From an uncultured Victivallaceae bacterium (GTDB taxonomy: Bacteria; Verrucomicrobiota; Lentisphaeria; Victivallales; Victivallaceae), in NCBI GenBank assembly GCA_944389925.1, contig CALXOD010000001.1, positions 1-64,000 on the forward strand: 64,000 nt of DNA, given 5' to 3'. Of this stretch, positions 4,860 through 47,295 are shown piece by piece. A program made the translations under genes and the position numbers. The notes under the pieces were generated by a model. It was not told the DNA's origin, made no database searches, and saw only the letters and a list, made by a program, of their open reading frames with translations. Position 1 is the first letter of the stretch. Each line of letters starts with the position of its first letter.

Positions 4860-5108
4860 GACCCACTCCCACAAAAGATATTCTTTTTGTTTCGTAATTT
4901 TCATACTATAATCCACCGAATTATTTTTTCCAGAACCGCCACAGAGTGATTTTTTTCACAGAATTTTGTTTTCAGGCTAACCGAATTTAAACCTTTGATG
5001 GTTTTATTAAAAGCAAATCGGAAACCAGTCCTGTTTCCGCCTTTTTTCTGATTCGCAGAACCACGGCTAAAACTGAGAACCCCCAACAATTTGAAAGGAT
5101 TTGCCACC

Positions 5109-6542
5109 ATGACCGGCAACCGGATATTTTGCATCCTGTGTTCCGTGATGGTTCCCTCTGTCGCCATCGCCGGACAGCTCCCGTCCGACATCGAAGTCCC
5201 CCCGGAAAAAGTACAGCGCATCCGTTTCGTCGAAGATGACGCGCAGAATTACATGGTTTCCAAAATCTACGAACTCCACCACCAGAAAGCAAACGACCTT
5301 GTGCCGTTCATTCTCGGCGCAATCAGACGATATGCCGCCAACGGATCGGCCGACCGCATCAATTATGCCGCTGCCGGCAGACAGTATGTCGCGGTCAGCT
5401 GTCCCGCGCCTCTGATGCCTTATATCGACGATATGATCGCCAAGCTGGACCGGCCCGGACTCAAAGGACCTGACGGATCCGGTATCGACGGTACCGGCAT
5501 CGTCCGTTCCGTCTATGTCCCGCGTTACCGTTCCACCGAAACCATGATGCAGATCATGATCAAAGCCGGCATTCCATCCAACGCCACCGAAGGTGCGGGA
5601 CAGGATGCGACACTCGGTTTCGACCCCGGCGCCAACCTCATCTACTGGAAAGACTCCATCAATAAGGACAAAGACTTGAAAAAATATCTCGCCTGGCTGG
5701 ATCGTCCGGTCCCCCAGGTTGCCGTATCCCTCAAACTCTACGAAGTCAGAGAAAGCGACCTGCGCGATCTCGGGCTGGACTATCTCGCCTGGAAAAACGG
5801 CCCGGGCCTGAATCTGCTGGACGTCGGAGCAAAATTCATGGAAGGAAGCGCCCTGGCTGATTCGTTCGGATTATACGGTTTTTTCATGTTCGCTCCCGCT
5901 ATTGATTTTTCCTTCGTCCGGCTGTTGGAGCAGAACGATGAAGCCCAGCTCAGTACCAGCGCCCGGGTGGTTGTCGCCACCGGACAGGACGCCCGGCTCA
6001 CCTTTGTACCGGATTACCAGAATCTGGTCAAGGATGACCAGTTCGCCGCAGCCGTTACCGAATCCACCAACGATCGGATCGAACTGACCATCACCCATCC
6101 GGTCATATCACTTGCCGGGGCTGCGGACAAAAACGGGGTAATCGGTTATTCGCAGCAGGATTACCACGAACAATCCGGAGTGGTGAACTTCACCTACGCG
6201 CTCCGTACCAGAACGGTCGTCGCCGGCAACAACTTCGGAGAAGAACTTTTCGACGAGGCCACATCCACCAGCACGGTTTCCATTCAGACCGGCGAGGAGC
6301 GCCTGCTGAACCGCTGGATCCGGGAAATGGAGGTGGAACAAACCATCGGCGTCCCCCTGCTCTGTGAACTGCCTATCCTGAAATACCTTTTCGGAACCAC
6401 CACCCGTAACCGAGAAAAAGTCTTCTGTTTTCTGGCCGCAGAAGCCGAACTGGTTCATCCGGACACCGACATTTCCCGCATCACCGGCACCCTTACACCG
6501 GTTCGTGATCTGGTACGTAATCTGCAAGAAGAAGGGAAATAA
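5109..6542 (+). CDS. Secretin-fold exported protein A
   Basis: A 477-residue protein with a signal peptide (cleavage near AIAGQ). Two secretin-like N-domain repeats are visible, one ending in IDDMIAKLDRPG and one ending in LKKYLAWLDRPVPQVAV. A C-terminal region ends with VPLLCELPILKYLF (about residues 415-428), the hallmark preceding the last strand of GspD/PilQ secretins. No pseudopilin or ATPase genes are adjacent, so this is not an ordinary type II secretion locus. The ATG at 5109 is preferred because AAGGA lies 9 nt upstream. It is followed after 3 nt by a diverged paralog (6546-8150), and the two are surely co-transcribed. It could form an outer-membrane ring alone or with the paralog; this is inference. 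Confidence 0.72.
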   Translation: MTGNRIFCILCSVMVPSVAIAGQLPSDIEVPPEKVQRIRFVEDDAQNYMVSKIYELHHQKANDLVPFILGAIRRYAANGSADRINYAAAGRQYVAVSCPAPLMPYIDDMIAKLDRPGLKGPDGSGIDGTGIVRSVYVPRYRSTETMMQIMIKAGIPSNATEGAGQDATLGFDPGANLIYWKDSINKDKDLKKYLAWLDRPVPQVAVSLKLYEVRESDLRDLGLDYLAWKNGPGLNLLDVGAKFMEGSALADSFGLYGFFMFAPAIDFSFVRLLEQNDEAQLSTSARVVVATGQDARLTFVPDYQNLVKDDQFAAAVTESTNDRIELTITHPVISLAGAADKNGVIGYSQQDYHEQSGVVNFTYALRTRTVVAGNNFGEELFDEATSTSTVSIQTGEERLLNRWIREMEVEQTIGVPLLCELPILKYLFGTTTRNREKVFCFLAAEAELVHPDTDISRITGTLTPVRDLVRNLQEEGK

Positions 6543-6545
6543 CCC

Positions 6546-8150
6546 ATGACCCGAAAACGCCTTTTCATCCTTCTGGCCGGAACCGCAGCCTTGAGCGCAG
6601 CAGCCAACCAACAGCCGACTTCCAACGACAATCCGGCCTACAGTCAATCCAACATCCAGGCCCAGCTCCGGCTGAACATCCGCGAAAATGCTGAAGTCGT
6701 GCATTTCATCCGCGATACCGCAGATCCTCATATCATCACCAAAACCTATGTGCTCAAACACGCCGATCCTTATTCGATCCGTCCCTATCTGCGGGAAATG
6801 GTGCAGGCGTTGCGCGTAGATTACAACAATCCCGCCGGACGTGCCAATCCGGCCTATTACAACACCTACAGCAAGGACAATGCCGCAAAAACCGAAAAAA
6901 TCTTCGTTCCGACCGGCATCGAATGTGTTAAATTCGTCGACGGCACCGGTGTACTCATGATTTCCGCGGAGGATTACCGTTTTCAAGACCACGCCGGCGG
7001 CATGGGCATTGATTCGCTCGTGGCCATGCTCGACACTCCCGGCATCATGAACTCTTCGGGACAGCCGAAATACATCTATTTCCCGGCCAACCGCTCTGCC
7101 CGGGAGCTGCAGACCATGATCAAACTGGTCGGGGCCAATATTTCCAATGACACCGTGGAACTGATCGGCGGCAAAGACAAGGTGGAAGTGGACGAAGAAC
7201 TTAACTGTCTTTTCTTCAATACCGCGCTCTATTCGCGTAAGAACATTGAAGAAATGCTCAGACTCTATGACGTCGCGTACCCGGAAATCCGGATGACATG
7301 TACCGTCTATGAACTGGATGCCGAAAATGACGGCATGCTCGGAATGGACTTTCAAAGCTGGAAAAACAATCATGGCGCCCGACTTTTTCAATCCGGTGCC
7401 AACTGGTCGCACAACGCCAATCTCTCCGGTACCTCCCTCCCCATCAAACCGGATGGGACACTCAATACGCATTATTTCAATTTTGAACCGAAATGGAACA
7501 GCCGGTTTCTGGATTTTCTGGTATCCCGGGGCAGCGCTCGTGTGATCACCACCGGCGACCTGACCGTGCGAAACGGCACCACCGGTACCATGACGCGCAG
7601 CACCGGGCTTCTTCACGCCGCCCTGACGCCGCTGCCCGCCGAACCGGATCAGCCGCAGCCGGGAAACGCCGTCGACATCCGGCCGGCCAATGAGCTCTTC
7701 CAATTTGAACTGAACCTCACGCCGAGTATCACCCAAAATGCCGCCACCGTAGAATTTCAGGTGGCAACCACCTCGCTGCTGGGCTATACCTCCGATGGCG
7801 CACCGCGCACCGAACATTACGAATCCGGCCAGAAATTCATGATCGGCACCGGTCGGAACCGCTTCTATCTCGGCGGCATCGAGAAAATCCGCATCGTCCG
7901 CGATGTCGCCGGTGTCCCGCTGCTCAAGGATCTTCCGATACTCGGACGCCTCTTTTCCACCGAACGAGAGTCTACAAAAAAAACACAGCTGGTCGTCGTC
8001 GCCGAATGCGAAATCATCCATCCCGCCACCGTCATCGACGAAACGGATCTTCGCCAGATCGAAATGATCCGCCATGAGAACGACTTCACCGGGAACGACA
8101 ATTCATACGGATTCCGTCAATACGGACTGGATCGGAAGTTTTCTTTCTAA
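6546..8150 (+). CDS. Secretin-fold exported protein B
   Basis: A 534-residue paralog of the preceding gene, with a short signal peptide (ending LSAAAN). It shares the order of N-domain (KTYVLKHADPYSIRPYL), second N-domain (YIYFPANRSARELQTMI), the VYELDAEN-GMLGMDFQSWKNN block that parallels VYEVRES-DLGLDYLAWKN of protein A, and the terminal VPLLKDLPILGRLF motif (about residues 455-470) typical of secretin C-termini. Identity to protein A looks low outside these blocks, suggesting an old duplication. The start is 3 nt after the previous stop, with AGGGA in the end of that gene. Stable pairing with protein A is possible but unproven. The pst operon starts 85 nt downstream. Confidence 0.72.
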   Translation: MTRKRLFILLAGTAALSAAANQQPTSNDNPAYSQSNIQAQLRLNIRENAEVVHFIRDTADPHIITKTYVLKHADPYSIRPYLREMVQALRVDYNNPAGRANPAYYNTYSKDNAAKTEKIFVPTGIECVKFVDGTGVLMISAEDYRFQDHAGGMGIDSLVAMLDTPGIMNSSGQPKYIYFPANRSARELQTMIKLVGANISNDTVELIGGKDKVEVDEELNCLFFNTALYSRKNIEEMLRLYDVAYPEIRMTCTVYELDAENDGMLGMDFQSWKNNHGARLFQSGANWSHNANLSGTSLPIKPDGTLNTHYFNFEPKWNSRFLDFLVSRGSARVITTGDLTVRNGTTGTMTRSTGLLHAALTPLPAEPDQPQPGNAVDIRPANELFQFELNLTPSITQNAATVEFQVATTSLLGYTSDGAPRTEHYESGQKFMIGTGRNRFYLGGIEKIRIVRDVAGVPLLKDLPILGRLFSTERESTKKTQLVVVAECEIIHPATVIDETDLRQIEMIRHENDFTGNDNSYGFRQYGLDRKFSF

Positions 8151-8235
8151 CACAATCCTAACCATATCCACATCATGTCCGCACAGGCGCGGGATAAAGT
8201 ATGGTACAGTTTCAAAAGATCAGGAGTATGACAAC

Positions 8236-9249
8236 ATGAAAAAATGGTTTCTTTCCATGGCCGTCGGCCTCGCTGCCGTCGCCGGAACCGCCGCGGAGAT
8301 CACGCTCAACGGCGCCGGCGCCACCTTCCCCTCTCCCGTCTACCGGGTCTGGACTTACGGATTCAGCCAGAGTACCGGCAACCGTATTCTGGTCAATTAT
8401 CAGGGGCTCGGTTCCGGTGCGGGAGTCAACCAGATCAAAGCCGGCACCATCCAGTTCGGCGGTACCGATAATCCCCTGACGGCGGAAGAGCTGGAAAAAG
8501 CCGGACTCATCCAGTTCCCGATGCTGACCGGCGGTGTAGTGGTGATCGTCAATCTTCCCGGCGTTCCTTCCGGAGCGTTAAAGCTGGACCAGCCGACCCT
8601 GGCGGCGATCTTCCTCGGTAAAATCAAAGCCTGGAACGATCCGGCGATTGCCGCTCTGAATCCGGGTTTGAAACTGCCGCGCATGAAAATCACCGTCGTC
8701 CGTCGCTCCGACAGTTCCGGTACCACGTTCATCTTCACCAATTACCTGTCGAAAATATCGCCGGAATGGCAGCAGAAAGTCGGCTGCGGTCCCGCCGTCA
8801 AATGGCCCGTCGGTATCGCCGGCCAGAAAAACCCCGGCGTCTGCAACAACGTCAGTCGCATCATGGGCGCCATCGGTTATACGGAGTATACCTACGCGGT
8901 GGAAGCCCGCCTCAGCACCGTACAACTGAAAAACCGCGAAGGAAAATTTCTTCCTCCCACCGCCGCCGGGTTCGCTGCTTCCGCCGCCAATGCCGACTGG
9001 AAAAACGCTCCCGGCTTCTACATGGTCCTGACTGATCAGCCCGGAGCCGACAGCTGGCCGATTACCGGAGTCACCTACATTCTGATCCGCCGCGACCAGA
9101 AGGATGCCGCCGCCGGCAAGGCTCTGCTCGATTACTTTAACTGGTGCTACACCTCCGGCGCTGCCGCCGCGGCCCGGCTGCATTATGTCGGCCTCCCCGA
9201 AAATGTCGTTGAACTCATTCGCAATGAATGGAAAAAAATCCGGTTCTGA
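8236..9249 (+). CDS. pstS: PstS, periplasmic phosphate-binding protein
   Basis: Periplasmic receptor of the high-affinity phosphate ABC importer, 337 residues. A signal peptide (cleavage near GTAAE) precedes the conserved phosphate-binding segments GAGATFPSPVY, GSGAGVNQI and RRSDSSGTTF. The ATG at 8236 has GGAG 9 nt upstream. It is the first gene of a complete pstSCAB-phoU unit in canonical order. I looked for a Pho box in the 85-nt gap upstream and saw none that was convincing. No phoB or phoR lies in the window. Confidence 0.96.
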   Translation: MKKWFLSMAVGLAAVAGTAAEITLNGAGATFPSPVYRVWTYGFSQSTGNRILVNYQGLGSGAGVNQIKAGTIQFGGTDNPLTAEELEKAGLIQFPMLTGGVVVIVNLPGVPSGALKLDQPTLAAIFLGKIKAWNDPAIAALNPGLKLPRMKITVVRRSDSSGTTFIFTNYLSKISPEWQQKVGCGPAVKWPVGIAGQKNPGVCNNVSRIMGAIGYTEYTYAVEARLSTVQLKNREGKFLPPTAAGFAASAANADWKNAPGFYMVLTDQPGADSWPITGVTYILIRRDQKDAAAGKALLDYFNWCYTSGAAAAARLHYVGLPENVVELIRNEWKKIRF

Positions 9250-9280
9250 AGACACCTTTGACCAGACGGACACGCTACTC

Positions 9281-10228
9281 ATGTTCAAACAGCTTGCACA
9301 GAAAATCCTTGATCCCGCCCGCGCCGACCGCTTATTCCGGATAGCGGTATTGCTCAGCGCCCTGCTGCTGCCGCTGGTGATGACCGGATTTTTTCTCCAG
9401 CTCGGCTGGAGTTCCGCGCCGGCCTGGCGGGAATTCGGACTCTCTTTGCTCTGGTCAACCGAGTGGGACCCGGTTGCCAATCGCTTCGGAGCCCTGCCCG
9501 CCATTGTCGGAACTCTGTTGACGACAAGCATTGCCATCGTCGCGGCAACGCCGCCGGCTTTCATCATCGCGCTGTACCTGGTCGACGCTCCGCCATGGAT
9601 CGGGCGTCCGCTCAGTCAGGCGCTGGATCTGCTGGCGGCCATTCCGAGCGTGATTTACGGTATGTGGGGCTTGTTCGTGCTGGTCCCGGTCATGCAGAAT
9701 CACGTACAGCCGTTTCTGGCGGATACCCTGCGCATGAAACATCTGCCGTTTGTGGGGGAATACTTCAACGGATTCGGAATTCTGACCGCGGGAATCATTC
9801 TGGCGCTGATGATTCTGCCGTACATCTCGGCCATCATGCGGGATGTTTTCCGCATGACGCCGCCGATGCTCCGGGAATCCGCCTACGGCATCGGCTGCAC
9901 CCGTTGGGAAACCGCGGTGCATATCGTCATGCGTTACGGAGCGCGCGGCCTGCTCGGCGGCGTCTTCGTCGGACTTGGCCGGGCTCTCGGAGAAACCATG
10001 GCCGTGCTCTTCGTCATCGGCAATGTGGCGATGCTGCCGGACTCCATTTTCGCCGGCGGCACCACAATCGCGGCCACATTGGCCAATAACTTTGCGGAAG
10101 CGGACGGTCTGCTGCGTCATGTTCTTTTTGCCCTGGGACTGGTTCTGCTGGTCATGTCGTTTATTGTCCAGTTGTTTGCACAATCCTGCCTGACGGCGAC
10201 TGCCGCCGCGCGGGGAGAGGAGCGCTGA
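9281..10228 (+). CDS. pstC: PstC, phosphate ABC transporter permease
   Basis: Inner-membrane permease of the phosphate importer, 315 residues with about six hydrophobic helices. The EAA-type cytoplasmic loop that docks PstB is visible (RESAYGIGCTRWETAVHIV). The segment GRALGETMAVLFVIGN is diagnostic of PstC. The start at 9281 is chosen because it begins just after the pstS stop and before the first amphipathic region; longer readings would overlap pstS. The Shine-Dalgarno is weak, consistent with reinitiation from pstS. Confidence 0.93.
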   Translation: MFKQLAQKILDPARADRLFRIAVLLSALLLPLVMTGFFLQLGWSSAPAWREFGLSLLWSTEWDPVANRFGALPAIVGTLLTTSIAIVAATPPAFIIALYLVDAPPWIGRPLSQALDLLAAIPSVIYGMWGLFVLVPVMQNHVQPFLADTLRMKHLPFVGEYFNGFGILTAGIILALMILPYISAIMRDVFRMTPPMLRESAYGIGCTRWETAVHIVMRYGARGLLGGVFVGLGRALGETMAVLFVIGNVAMLPDSIFAGGTTIAATLANNFAEADGLLRHVLFALGLVLLVMSFIVQLFAQSCLTATAAARGEER

Positions 10229-10232
10229 AATC

Positions 10233-11111
10233 ATGGATCCATTTGCCCCCCTGGAAGACCGCAGACGCGGACTACGCTTCCGGAAATTTCTGGATCGGAT
10301 GGTCCGAGTCGCCTCGCTGGCGGCATTGGCCGCCGGACTTGGCGGCATGTTGTGGATTCTCTACACGGTCGTTGATCATGGAGCGGGAGCTCTCGGCTGG
10401 GATTTTCTTACTGAGCCGTCCAAACCATATGGAGCGGAACACCCCGGCATCGCCAATGCTCTGATCGGAACGTTGCTGATCACACTCGGCGCAGCTTTGA
10501 TGGCACTGCCGCCGGCCCTGGGGGCGGGAATTTATCTCTCCGAATTCGGACGGGGCAGTCGGACGGCGCACTGGATCCGTTTTTCCGCCAACGTCATGAT
10601 GGGAGTTCCATCGGTTCTGGTAGGATTGTTCATCTATGCGTTATGGGTGGTGCCGACGGGGAAATTTTCCGGATTCGCCGGTTCACTGGCATTGGCGGTG
10701 ATCATGTTTCCGGTGGTCATGCGTACCACGGAGGATATTCTCACCATGGTCCCGGACGCTCTGCGCGAATCGGCCCTGGCGCTGGGCATGACCCGGGCAC
10801 GCGCCATCTGCAGGATCGTCTGCCGGGCCGGACGTAATGGTCTGGTCACCGGAGTATTGCTGGCGGTGGCTCGGGTCAGCGGAGAAACGGCGCCGCTGTT
10901 ATTTACCGCCCTCTGGAGCGACGGCTGGCCGACCGGCTATTTTCGGGAACCGACCTCCAACCTGCCGGTCCTGATCACGGAGTACGCCACCAATTCCCCG
11001 TTTCCGGAGCAGCATGCCGCCGGCTGGGGAGCGGCCCTGGTGGTAATGACCCTGATTCTGTTGCTCAACATCGGTTGCCGCGTTCTTTTCAAGGAGAAAA
11101 AACATGTCTGA
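10233..11111 (+). CDS. pstA: PstA, phosphate ABC transporter permease
   Basis: Second permease of the phosphate importer, 292 residues. After a cytoplasmic N-terminus it has multiple membrane helices and the EAA loop [19 protein letters not shown]. The family-typical [15 protein letters not shown] segment identifies PstA. It starts 4 nt after pstC with a strong GGAGAGGAG site. The last codons overlap the pstB start by 8 nt, so stoichiometric translation is likely. Confidence 0.94.
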
Positions 11112-11877
11112 AATACGTCCGCCCAAAATCAAGATTTCCGTCCGAAATCTCAATTTCTTCTATGGTTCCCATCAGGCGCTCTTCGCCAATAATCTGGATA
11201 TCGAAGAACACCGGGTAACCGCCGTCATCGGCCCTTCCGGCTGTGGAAAATCTACACATTTGCGTGTTTACAACCGAATTTACCAGCTCTATCGGGAACA
11301 GCGTGCCGAGGGGGAAGTGCTGCTCGATGGGCACAATCTGCTCGACTCCGACGTAGACGTGCTGGAACTGCGACGGAGAGTCGGCATGATTTTTCAGAAA
11401 CCGACACCGTTTCCGATGTCGGTTTTCGATAACGTCGCCTATCCGCTGCGCCTGCATTTCAAGCTGCACCGCACGGAAATCGCGGAACGAGTGGAAAGCG
11501 CTCTGCGCGGTGCCTCTCTATGGGATGAAGTGAAAGATAAATTGAAATCCAGCGGCCTGGCTCTCTCCGGCGGCCAGCAGCAACGTTTGTGTATCGCCCG
11601 GGCCATCGCGGCGGAACCGGAAGTTCTGCTGATGGATGAACCGACTTCAGCCATTGACCCGGTGGCGACCGCGAAAATCGAAGAATTGATTCTCGCCCTG
11701 AAGCCCCGTTTCACGATCGTCATCGTCACGCACAACATGCAGCAGGCGGCGCGTATTTCCGATCGGACCGCGTTCTTTTATAAAGGCGAAATTGTTGAAA
11801 CCGACGCCACAGCGAAAATCTTCACCAATCCATCCAACCCCAAAACGGAAGAATACATCACTGGCCGTTTCGGCTGA
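11104..11877 (+). CDS. pstB: PstB, phosphate ABC transporter ATPase
   Basis: ATP-binding subunit of 257 residues that powers phosphate uptake through PstCA. Walker [10 protein letters not shown] is at about residues 43-51. The ABC signature LSGGQQQRL is near 153 and Walker [13 protein letters not shown] near 173, followed by a His-switch VTHNMQQA. The length and the RVYNRI and [17 protein letters not shown] segments are typical of PstB. It has a good GGAG site in the end of pstA. Confidence 0.97.
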
Positions 11878-11896: not shown

Positions 11897-12550
11897 ATGA
11901 AAGTACATCTGCAACAGGAAATCGATCACCTGAAAAACCTTCTCTGCGAACTGGCAGCCTCCGTCGAACCAGCAGTCCGTGAAGCCGTCCGTGCCGTCGA
12001 AACCCGCGACGCGGAATGCGCCCAGCGGGTATTGGCAGGCGACGAAGCCATTGATCGCATGGAGGTGCGTATCGAGGAAGAATGCCTCAAAATCCTGGCG
12101 CTGCATCAGCCGGTGGCCGGAGATCTTCGTTATGTCATCACGCTGCTTAAAGTGAATTCCGAACTGGAACGGATCGGCGATCTTGCCGTCAACATCGCGG
12201 AACGGGGTGCGGATCTCGCCTCTCTGGACGCTCCGGCGGAGACCCTCGATTTCTCCCGCATGGTCTTCGAAGCCCGTTCCATGCTGAAAAATGCTCTCGA
12301 TGCCCTGATCTGCCGCAATGCACTTGCTGCTCAGGAAGTGATTCAACATGATGATGTCGTGGACGACCTGCACCATGAAACGCTCCTGAAACTACGCGAT
12401 CTGATCAGTCGTCATCCGGAAAACGCGGCCTTTTATCTGGATCTGCTAACGGTTTCACGCAATCTGGAACGCATCGCCGACGGCGCTACCAACATCTGCG
12501 AAGACGTGATCTATCTGGAACTGGGTACCATCGTACGTCATAACACCTGA
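11897..12550 (+). CDS. phoU: PhoU, phosphate transport regulator
   Basis: A 217-residue all-helical regulator with two PhoU repeats. PhoU couples the Pst transporter to the PhoR kinase and limits phosphate uptake. Conserved acidic metal-binding patterns are visible: ELERIGDLAVNIAERG in the first repeat and NLERIADGATNICEDV in the second. ATG 11897 has GGGAG upstream. The end overlaps the convergent beta-helix gene by 13 nt. It is the last gene of the pst unit. Confidence 0.95.
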   Translation: MKVHLQQEIDHLKNLLCELAASVEPAVREAVRAVETRDAECAQRVLAGDEAIDRMEVRIEEECLKILALHQPVAGDLRYVITLLKVNSELERIGDLAVNIAERGADLASLDAPAETLDFSRMVFEARSMLKNALDALICRNALAAQEVIQHDDVVDDLHHETLLKLRDLISRHPENAAFYLDLLTVSRNLERIADGATNICEDVIYLELGTIVRHNT

Positions 12551-44348: not shown

Positions 44349-44397
44349 AAACAGGATATTAATGTCAATCATGACCAATATAACAGGGAAAAAAACC

Positions 44398-47295
44398 ATG
44401 CTCCTCCAACTCCTCAACCGCCGGCCCTGGCTGCTGCGCGGAGTCAACGTGTTTGCGCTCTCACTGTTTGTGTTCTCCATGAACGGCTGCGCCTATCTGC
44501 AATCGCTGGAAAATCCGGAGGAAAATAAAAACGAACCGGAAAATAAATTCGACTTCATCGAACGAAATAAAGCGCAACATTACGTCGCACCGGACGCCGG
44601 CGCTCCGGATGAAATCGGGATCGGTAAATCCGCCGACAATGAAAAGGTCGAACAACAGACCAAGGACTTCAACCGCCCCACCCCCAAAGAACGGGATGAC
44701 AAGGTCAAAAATCGCGATCTTGCACCACGTTTCTATGAAGATTTCATCGTCCTGGACGGCGATCAGGAGCTGGACGTGGCTTTGACTTTCAACTCCACGC
44801 CACTGGTTGATACCCTGCCCGCATTCGCCGATATTCTCGGATTCAATTTTACCGCGGACAGCGAAATCAGAAGTTCCGTCACCATTAATCTCAATTCCCG
44901 TATGACCCGGCGGGAACTGTGGGAAACCTTCGACAGCATGCTCAAAGTTGCCGGTGTCAGCGCCATCAAAAACGGCCAGCTGCTCAACATCATGCCGATC
45001 ACCAAAATTCCGGCGCAGGCGGCCCTGCGCGTCGGCAATCGTTATGACGGCGGCAGTGAAGTCATCACCCGCACCATGGAAAATGTCGCCAGCCGGGAAG
45101 CAGTCATTCAGCTGCGCCCCTTTCTGACGAAATCCGGCGCTGCCATTGATGTCACCCGGACCAATACCATTCTGGTCAGCGACGATGCCACCAATATTCC
45201 CAAACTCAAGGAAATTCTGGATCTGATCGACCAGGCGGGACGCCAGAACTGGCCACGGACCATTATTTACTGCAACAATGTCAAACCCTCCAAAATGGCC
45301 CAGGAGCTGACGGAAATCCTGCCGGTTCTGGGATTCCCGATTACCTTGTCCACGGATCGTACCGAAACCCCGGGCTCCATCCGCCTGACCAGTGTCGATC
45401 GTCTCCAGATTCTGGTGGCCACGGCTGCCAATGAGGAAGCCATTAAGGAAGTAACCGACTGGGCCGCCTTACTCGACAGTGCAGACGCCTCCGACCAGGA
45501 GCGTCTTTACATCTACAAGGTAGCCCACGGGAAAGCCCGGCAGCTGGCTCAGGCTCTGACAGTAATTTTCGCCACGCAGGGAACCGCCATGACGGTCGAT
45601 TCCGGTACAGGTAATCAGCGCAATGAAGCACTCAATGCTCAGGCGACCCGTCAGGTCAATCAGACGATTACAGCCCAGAACCGTTATTCCACCAATAATA
45701 TGCCGATCACCCAGGTGGACAAGGCTTCCAGCGTATTCGACACCCCGCTGCGGCTGTTCGCCGACGGTGTGCAGAACCGGCTGGTCATCCGCACCACTCC
45801 GCGTACCTACGCCATGGTCAAAGCCATGCTGGACCGGCTGGACGTGGTACCGGCCCAGGTGCTGCTGCAGATTCTGGTAGTGGAAATTACGCTGAATGAC
45901 AGCAATGAGTTCGGCATCAACTTCAATGCCGTAGGAGGCAACAACGGCACCGGAGTTTCCACCGGCGGCGACTTTACGGGAACGCCTGCGACTACCACCG
46001 ACCCCAATGGATTCACCTTCTCCGTTTTCAACGAAAAGAATCCGGATGAGAAATTCGCCACTCTCCATGCACTGGCCGGTCGCGAAAACATCAAGGTTAT
46101 CTCCACCCCGCAATTGGTGGTTACCAGCAATACGGAAGCCACCATTCAGGTGGGTCAACGGGTCCCCCTCTTGACGGCGGACTATACCAATGTCGATTCC
46201 CAGCAGGGAGCGATCAGCCGGTCGTATGATTATGAAGATACCGGGATCATTCTGGAAATTGTTCCGCAAGTTACCAGCCGTGACCTGATCGCACTGGAAA
46301 TCAAGCAGACGGTCTCGGAAGCAGTCAAAAACACCATCACCAGCGCGGCCGACACCCCGGTCATCAACCAGCGAATGCTGGAAACCACCATGACCATCAC
46401 CAATGGCCGTACCATGGTTATCGGGGGCATGATTCAGGAAAAGAACACTGATACTCTGGCTTCGGTGCCGATCGTTTCCGGCATTCCGTTCCTGCGGCGG
46501 GTCTTCGGAAATACGAGTCAGTCGGTGAATCGTACCGAACTGCTGGTTCTGATCACCGGTTACATTATTGATGAAAAGAGCCCGGTCGAAGACATGCTCA
46601 AACGCTACAATAATTCGGTCAAGGCGTTGAGCGTCTTTGAAAATGAACTGGAAGAACAGCACAAGATGGACTTGGCTCAAGCCCGGCGCGCTCAGGCGGA
46701 ACGGGCTAAAAAAGAGGCGGAAGCCGCCAAAATCAAGGCGGAAAATGAAGCCATGGAAAAAGCAGCAAACGCTCAGGCCGCCGCCAAGGAAATGGTGGAA
46801 AAAGAAGTAGCCGCACGGGAAGCTGCAACAACGACCGTGGACCAGAAACAGCAAGTCCCAGCAGAAACAAAAGCGGAAGCAGAAGCAGCCGCCATTGCCA
46901 AAGCTCAGGAGGCAGCGGCCAAAGAGGCCGAAGCGAAAGCCGCTGCGGAAGCGGCAGCACAGGAAGCGGCAGCCCGGGAAGCGGCAGCTAAAAAGGAAGC
47001 GGAAGTCAAAGAGATGGTCGCCAAGGAAGTAGCCGCCAGAGAGGCAGCGGTTCAAAAAGCAGCACCGGAAGCTCCGGTCAAAGAAAAGGTCCCCGCCACT
47101 CCGCAGCAGACGCCTGAGACGACCAATCCGGCGGCAGTCGTGCCTGCCACTCAGCCGCTCCCCAAGGCAGAAGCTCCTCAGGAACCGGCCAAGGAGAATC
47201 CTCCTGCTTCCCCGCAGCAGACGCCTGAGATGACCAATCCGGCGGCAGCCGTGCCTGCCACTCAGCCGGAATCCCGGACGGAGGCGAAACAATGA
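44398..47295 (+). CDS. GspD-type secretin with long Ala/Glu-rich C-terminal extension
   Basis: Outer-membrane secretin of 965 residues, a lipoprotein (signal ends SMNGC). N-domains are visible at LDVALTFNSTPLVDTLPAFA and in the repeated blocks ending in LKEILDLID and TDWAALLDS. The secretin core contains VLLQILVVEITLNDSNEFG, STPQLVVTSNTEATIQVGQRVP and the closing FLRRVFGNTSQSVNRTELLVLITGYII. About 225 further residues follow, highly charged and Ala-rich with likely coiled coil, ending in two near-identical Pro/Thr-rich repeats. Such an extension is not usual in GspD. The start at 44398 is chosen for AGGGA 8 nt upstream; earlier in-frame ATGs at 44362 and 44371 are possible. Confidence 0.88.
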   Translation: MLLQLLNRRPWLLRGVNVFALSLFVFSMNGCAYLQSLENPEENKNEPENKFDFIERNKAQHYVAPDAGAPDEIGIGKSADNEKVEQQTKDFNRPTPKERDDKVKNRDLAPRFYEDFIVLDGDQELDVALTFNSTPLVDTLPAFADILGFNFTADSEIRSSVTINLNSRMTRRELWETFDSMLKVAGVSAIKNGQLLNIMPITKIPAQAALRVGNRYDGGSEVITRTMENVASREAVIQLRPFLTKSGAAIDVTRTNTILVSDDATNIPKLKEILDLIDQAGRQNWPRTIIYCNNVKPSKMAQELTEILPVLGFPITLSTDRTETPGSIRLTSVDRLQILVATAANEEAIKEVTDWAALLDSADASDQERLYIYKVAHGKARQLAQALTVIFATQGTAMTVDSGTGNQRNEALNAQATRQVNQTITAQNRYSTNNMPITQVDKASSVFDTPLRLFADGVQNRLVIRTTPRTYAMVKAMLDRLDVVPAQVLLQILVVEITLNDSNEFGINFNAVGGNNGTGVSTGGDFTGTPATTTDPNGFTFSVFNEKNPDEKFATLHALAGRENIKVISTPQLVVTSNTEATIQVGQRVPLLTADYTNVDSQQGAISRSYDYEDTGIILEIVPQVTSRDLIALEIKQTVSEAVKNTITSAADTPVINQRMLETTMTITNGRTMVIGGMIQEKNTDTLASVPIVSGIPFLRRVFGNTSQSVNRTELLVLITGYIIDEKSPVEDMLKRYNNSVKALSVFENELEEQHKMDLAQARRAQAERAKKEAEAAKIKAENEAMEKAANAQAAAKEMVEKEVAAREAATTTVDQKQQVPAETKAEAEAAAIAKAQEAAAKEAEAKAAAEAAAQEAAAREAAAKKEAEVKEMVAKEVAAREAAVQKAAPEAPVKEKVPATPQQTPETTNPAAVVPATQPLPKAEAPQEPAKENPPASPQQTPEMTNPAAAVPATQPESRTEAKQ
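47101..47268 (+). repeat. Two 57-bp direct repeats in the gspD tail
   Basis: Copies at 47101-47157 and 47212-47268 differ at two bases and stay in frame. They encode PQQTPETTNPAAVVPATQP and its variant. A 54-bp spacer separates them. They suggest a recent duplication in the secretin tail. Confidence 0.85.

Follow-up and report, generated by a model that had tools for sequence, protein, structure and literature searches.

A tandem pair of diverged secretins beside the phosphate operon of a Victivallaceae bacterium: a candidate outer-membrane channel of the Pho/Pst system

What might two adjacent secretin genes serve when they lie immediately upstream of a phosphate-uptake operon? The question is raised by the window (i.e., the whole analyzed stretch of 64,000 nucleotides) from the genome of an uncultured Victivallaceae bacterium. 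The secretins described so far form gated passages through which proteins, pili or phage leave the cell, and we know of no precedent for a secretin acting as a nutrient pore.

Secretin identity of genes A and B

The two genes, here called A and B, are both located on the + strand and are separated by 3 nt:

5109..6542, + strand: secretin A, 477 aa; predicted signal peptide, putative N-domains (N1-like and N3-like) and secretin core; N0/STN absent
6546..8150, + strand: secretin B, 534 aa; predicted signal peptide, putative N-domains, secretin core

The ATG at 5109 was chosen as the start of A over the TTG at 5091. The N-termini of the products (MTGNRIFCILCSVMVPSVAIAG and MTRKRLFILLAGTAALSAAA, in the order given) are hydrophobic and, as read by eye, signal-peptide-like, and the VPLL..LPIL..LF signature is exact in both A (GVPLLCELPILKYLF) and B (GVPLLKDLPILGRLF), which agrees with the signal peptides and the VPLL-x-x-LPIL-x-x-LF hallmark reported in a preliminary description of this DNA. 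The Pfam Secretin profile suggested there as a check (PF00263, curated cut-off 27.5) was exceeded by A (32.3 bits, E 9.5e-8) as well as by B (52.1 bits, E 7.8e-14), and a profile scan matched it to all homologues of A (46/46) and of B (46/46). Profile searches of the PDB with these homologues returned secretins only; the best match of B was a secretin with E 3.7e-21, and that of A was f1 pIV, which is also its best sequence match (E 1e-6). The PHROG family of protein IV of M13 matches both proteins. Aligned with hhalign, A and B prove homologous along almost the whole of both proteins (E 4.9e-48), and both fall far under every cut-off of the NCBIfam secretin equivalogs (GspD, PilQ, SctC, MshL, and Amuc_1098), e.g., with 24 and 45 bits vs. 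351 for GspD, 31 and 42 bits vs. 284 for PilQ, and 12 and 23 bits vs. 750 for Amuc_1098. Judged by these profile matches, A and B are secretins by fold family, and they are best explained as diverged products of an old tandem duplication, within a reading to which, taken as a whole, we give an even chance.

The N0 domain is the part of a secretin that docks to inner-membrane components. The domain scan found no STN/N0 in A or B of the window or in any of the 92 A/B homologues; Secretin_N was matched in 25/46 homologues of A and 15/46 of B, and the Pfam scan gave no Secretin_N match in the window's own pair. Structure prediction, which had also been proposed, was run on the A and B monomers with AlphaFold2 from five-sequence alignments, and both models were of low confidence (pLDDT 53 for A and 38 for B), so that details of gate and barrel carry no claim here. 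The A model contains two beta-alpha-beta-beta-alpha units ahead of the secretin core. The B model was unusable, and the fold search was performed with the A model alone, for which Foldseek returned only secretins at E <= 0.001 (best E 9e-12). The assignment of the parts of A is based on this low-confidence model together with the Pfam, PDB profile and Foldseek matches. The repeated N-domains of the preliminary description are thus borne out only in part, by the two units of the low-confidence A model and by some of the homologues, but the window pair itself is unmatched by the Secretin_N profile.

Family of paired secretins and its genomic surroundings

In agreement with what had been noted before, the gene list places no ATPase, platform or pseudopilin genes beside A-B in the window, and the complete secretion operon (T2SS core), present once in it, is some 36 kb distant and includes a secretin of its own (44362-47295), composed of N0, three Secretin_N and Secretin domains. 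The survey of neighboring genes in related genomes, also suggested at the outset, revealed no gsp genes in A-B neighborhoods, nor did genes for a pseudopilin, for GspC or for an exported phosphatase recur consistently next to the pair.

Seven secretin loci, of which one is the A-B pair, were found in the genome, which measures 2.8 Mb and is 97% complete. On contig 46 (L069), two large TPR-containing secretins of 851 and 824 aa are encoded in tandem beside pilMNO-like genes, and by sequence they appear to be a second doubled secretin of the same genome, of the Amuc_1098-like type. On contig 67 (L070), a weak secretin was observed in a Tad/Cpa-like cluster (FHA proteins and TadB/TadC-like membrane proteins). 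BamA/Omp85 is present in this genome. A TonB-receptor barrel is absent from it, as from 59/61 genomes searched, and one of the two genomes with such barrels (G040) has no A match. Two porin families were searched for, Porin_O_P and OprB, and neither was found in the window's genome.

Matches to B were found in 58 and matches to A in 55 of 61 genomes, with the window's own genome counted in. In a phylum-wide sample, A was matched at E <= 1e-15 in 66/289 genomes, all but one of which belong to the order of the window. A plasmid search returned remote secretins only. The gene order is A then B in all 78 analyzed pairs, and the two genes are separated by 20.5 nt at the median and by <=60 nt in 68/78 pairs. 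The pairs are multi-copy, paralogous and chromosomal, and they are stably kept across the order. Sequence comparison thus identifies A-B as a tandem pair of ancient origin that hardly occurs outside a single order of Lentisphaeria, and as a large lineage-specific family. The label of orphan secretins, used in the preliminary description, is therefore apt as to the lack of an ATPase, platform and pseudopilins beside them, but not as to a single, one-off pair. The idea of a specialized channel made by a diverged pair gains from the strict tandem arrangement: if two diverged secretins are so regularly paired, they may well act in one complex, perhaps a heteromeric channel of the outer membrane.

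A large number of pairs have no partner genes, or none beyond those for a leader-peptide protein of about 150 aa and a MarR regulator. The former, a probable lipoprotein with no Pfam match (e.g., L103:5928-6377), adjoins A-B in 25/78 pairs and may possibly be an accessory subunit of other A-B branches; the gene of the latter adjoins 10/78 pairs and is a possible regulator of such branches. Other pairs are in line with transport genes, as single cases: KdpABCD (L133), FeoAB (L096), an aspartate/alanine exchanger with an aminotransferase-fold enzyme (L143), an NMT1-type ABC transporter (L132), an SNF symporter (L127) and, in a looser association, GlnK-Amt (L107). An amino-acid permease and a decarboxylase accompany the pair at two loci (L117 and L085). 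It is also worth mentioning that at L085, L091 and L117 the pair is accompanied by a PLP decarboxylase (of the Orn/Lys/Arg type or another) and by permeases resembling amino-acid antiporters, a combination known from acid-resistance modules. In one genus, a pair is next to a pilMNO-like, Amuc_1098-type locus; no phage or pilus genes occur at the other A-B loci. A general enrichment of A-B beside transporters was considered and rejected, as a blind count of TM segments showed weak enrichment of polytopic membrane proteins among the two nearest same-strand genes (p 0.006) and gave p 0.16 for whole putative operons.

Phosphate genes and a Pho-box-like repeat

In the window, the pair is followed by the following genes:

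8236..9249, + strand: pstS, phosphate-binding protein; PBP_like_2 E 1.2e-35; conserved next gene after B
9224..10228, + strand: pstC permease; assigned from the gene call, its place in the row and its grouping with the pst permeases found at other loci
10233..11111, + strand: pstA permease; assigned on the same grounds as pstC
11104..11877, + strand: pstB ATPase; by gene call, order and clustering
11897..12550, + strand: phoU regulator; by gene call, order and clustering

The survey showed A-B to be recurrently placed 5' of pstS. The pair is located immediately 5' of pstS, on the same strand, in 11/37 pstS-bearing genomes (the window's included), drawn from four families, and five further genomes bring the total to 16; in most pstS-bearing genomes the pair is not adjacent to pstS. 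At three loci (L154, L155, and L156), A-B stands in one row with pstS, pstC, pstA, pstB, phoU and a phoB-phoR-like pair, the order at L154 and L155 being A-B-pstS-(115-aa gene)-pstC-pstA-pstB-phoU-phoB-phoR, and that at L156 being similar. A protein of about 115 aa with no Pfam match was observed between pstS and pstC at L109 (4582-4926), L073, L154 and L158. In one case (L142), the order is A-B-PHO4 permease-ion channel-Ppx/GppA-Ppk. When the pairs were placed in a maximum-likelihood tree, those linked to pst fell into separate well-supported clades (at least three), and at least six changes are needed, which implies that the link arose repeatedly, or is old and was often lost. Adjacency of A-B to pst/pho genes is conserved beyond close relatives.

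The M48 lipoprotein gene, previously called adjacent to the pair, is not: it lies at 1199-2023, three genes away on the other strand, with HAD and FG-GAP genes, also on the opposite strand, between. Homologous M48 peptidase genes (lipoproteins by their leader) are located directly 3' of B at L098 and L114, where A carries a Pho-box-like site; for the window pair, a link to M48 has little behind it.

The regions 5' of pstS and A were searched without bias for repeats spaced by 11 bp, which yielded CTAAC-N6-CTAAC; the Pho-box-like repeat reads YCTAACM-N4-YCTAACM, with an 11-bp period. The words of the enterobacterial Pho box (TGTCA) gave nothing. A PWM was built solely from pst promoters without an adjacent A-B and was then applied to the regions 5' of A. 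Two copies are relevant in the window:

4976..4993, + strand: Pho-box-like repeat 5' of A, GCTAACC-GAAT-TTAAACC; degenerate, score 8.5
8146..8163, + strand: Pho-box-like repeat TCTAACA-CAAT-CCTAACC; perfect, PWM score 20.5

The perfect copy overlaps the stop codon of B, is located 73 bp ahead of the pstS start and is the only exact match found in the genome by a whole-genome pattern search. The copy upstream of A has an empirical p of 0.047 against 467 control upstream regions and is weak alone. Across the family, sites above the 95% control threshold precede 11/43 non-pst pairs in genomes with pstS vs. 0/23 in genomes without it (Fisher p 0.005); counted per genome, a box-bearing non-pst pair occurs in 11/20 vs. 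0/13 (p 0.0009). When the motif was permuted 200 times, the count never rose to 11 (mean 2.4, maximum 9). In 10 pst-bearing genomes there was no box-bearing pair among the pairs retrieved, and a phylogeny-aware pairs test went in the right direction (about 2.4 vs. 0), with few informative pairs and no power. Several relatives have strong boxes ahead of both A and pstS. The exact-pattern scan of genomes placed the sites chiefly before pstS; the other genes they precede include phoB, pstC, that of a proton pyrophosphatase and, in three genomes, A. The membrane proton pyrophosphatase gene at L177 (G045) has a perfect site and is plausibly a member of the Pho regulon in its lineage.

Pho control of the A-B family is well supported by these sequence patterns. 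For the pair of the window it is probable, not proven: with a weak repeat ahead of A and a perfect one that belongs to pst itself, co-expression of A-B with pst is no more than presumptive here. The link to phosphate uptake, called speculation in the preliminary description, has become the best-supported part of the case, given 16 genomes, at least three clades and Pho-box-like sites before many A genes.

Proposed function, alternatives and comparison with known systems

We propose, at an even balance of probability, that A-B is a secretin-derived outer-membrane channel serving Pho/Pst, most likely in solute entry. A and B would jointly form a specialized channel, either as a mixed ring or as two partner rings, and one A-B branch would supply the phosphate-starvation (Pho) system with its part in the outer membrane. 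This branch, encoded with PstSCAB-PhoU and in some genomes also with PhoB-PhoR, would be induced via the same 11-bp-periodic Pho-box-like sites. In an outer membrane mostly lacking TonB receptors, and with no Porin_O_P or OprB found, the channel might let phosphate or small phosphate-containing solutes across, to be passed to the periplasmic PstS. The proposal builds on secretin homology, fixed A-B pairing, recurrent pst adjacency and a shared promoter motif; from these we infer ring formation, location in the outer membrane, actual induction and inward passage of solutes.

Secretins normally export proteins, and A-B might instead be a Pho-regulated alternative T2SS secretin, which borrows its ATPase, platform and pseudopilins from elsewhere in the genome and, when phosphate is scarce, exports phosphatases or other phosphate-scavenging enzymes in the manner of Hxc of Pseudomonas aeruginosa. 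The linkage to Pho boxes fits such export equally well, a T2SS core occurs once in the window, and type II secretion has been linked to phosphate starvation in Caulobacter (PMC2996285). The lack of N0 in all A/B homologues, when the window's GspD has one, argues against it, as do the lack of a consistently adjacent pseudopilin, GspC or exported phosphatase gene and the pairs found with K+, Fe2+ or amino-acid transport, where there is nothing obvious to export. A solute channel is supported by the absence of TonB barrels and by solute-transport neighbors, whereas export would have to proceed without N0, dedicated secretion genes and a conserved exported substrate; we therefore prefer the solute channel and regard Pho-regulated export as rather unlikely.

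It could also be argued that A-B serves the order in a general way, as a channel of the outer membrane or in envelope homeostasis, with no tie to a substrate, and that its adjacency to pst goes back to chance in an ancestor and was inherited. The many pairs that stand alone or only with the leader-peptide protein or MarR, and the weak generic enrichment of transporters, would suit this explanation, but pst linkage in separate clades, Pho-box-like sites before unlinked A in pstS genomes only and the separate PHO4-Ppx-Ppk linkage make it improbable. That A-B is the secretin of a type IV pilus or a filamentous-phage-like exporter is disfavored and very improbable: the protein IV matches and the one genus with a pair beside an Amuc_1098-type locus point that way, but the other loci are devoid of phage or pilus genes, the pairs are stable, multi-copy and chromosomal throughout the order, and both the pilus and the secretion equivalogs score far below cut-off.

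The solute-channel proposal may tentatively be extended to the whole order: in the absence of TonB receptors, a duplicated secretin could have given rise to paired, substrate-assigned nutrient channels, one per transporter operon (Pst, PHO4, Kdp, Feo, and amino-acid antiporters), with the Pho-regulated branch represented in the window. A literature search, with subscription journals outside its reach, found no paper on secretin pairs of Lentisphaeria, on orphan secretins or on a secretin in phosphate uptake. If true, a secretin pair belonging to phosphate uptake would put the fold to a new use and would offer an answer to how Lentisphaeria without TonB receptors feed through the outer membrane; A-B would also be a natural candidate for a heteromeric secretin. 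The repeated placement of the pair beside phosphate-uptake genes, apparently under the same switch, suggests that protein-exporting channels were turned into nutrient gates in bacteria without the usual ones, and an order-wide multi-copy family with a promoter motif makes the idea directly testable.

Among known systems, OprO/OprP (Porin_O_P) and PhoE of E. coli resemble A-B in the proposed role only, i.e., outer-membrane phosphate entry under Pho control; their fold is unrelated, and Porin_O_P is absent from the window's genome. PilQ and Amuc_1098 share the secretin core, and the same genome has large Amuc_1098-like secretins, but A-B has no AMIN or TPR domains. Protein IV of f1/M13 is a compact secretin of similar size, the best sequence match of A and the source of the PHROG match, whereas A-B consists of two chromosomal genes with nutrient-transporter neighbors and no phage genes. 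GspD has the secretin core, the VPLL..LPIL..LF motif and N-domains of the fold that is putatively present in A-B; A-B differs in lacking N0, in having half the length of the window's GspD, in being doubled and in having no gsp genes beside it. Hxc of Pseudomonas aeruginosa is a T2SS exporting under phosphate starvation, and the probable Pho regulation of A-B resembles it in kind, but unlike Hxc-type systems A-B is tied to Pst and not to an exported enzyme. A-B would accordingly appear, as far as can be read from its genes, to be a secretin by fold that is new by context.
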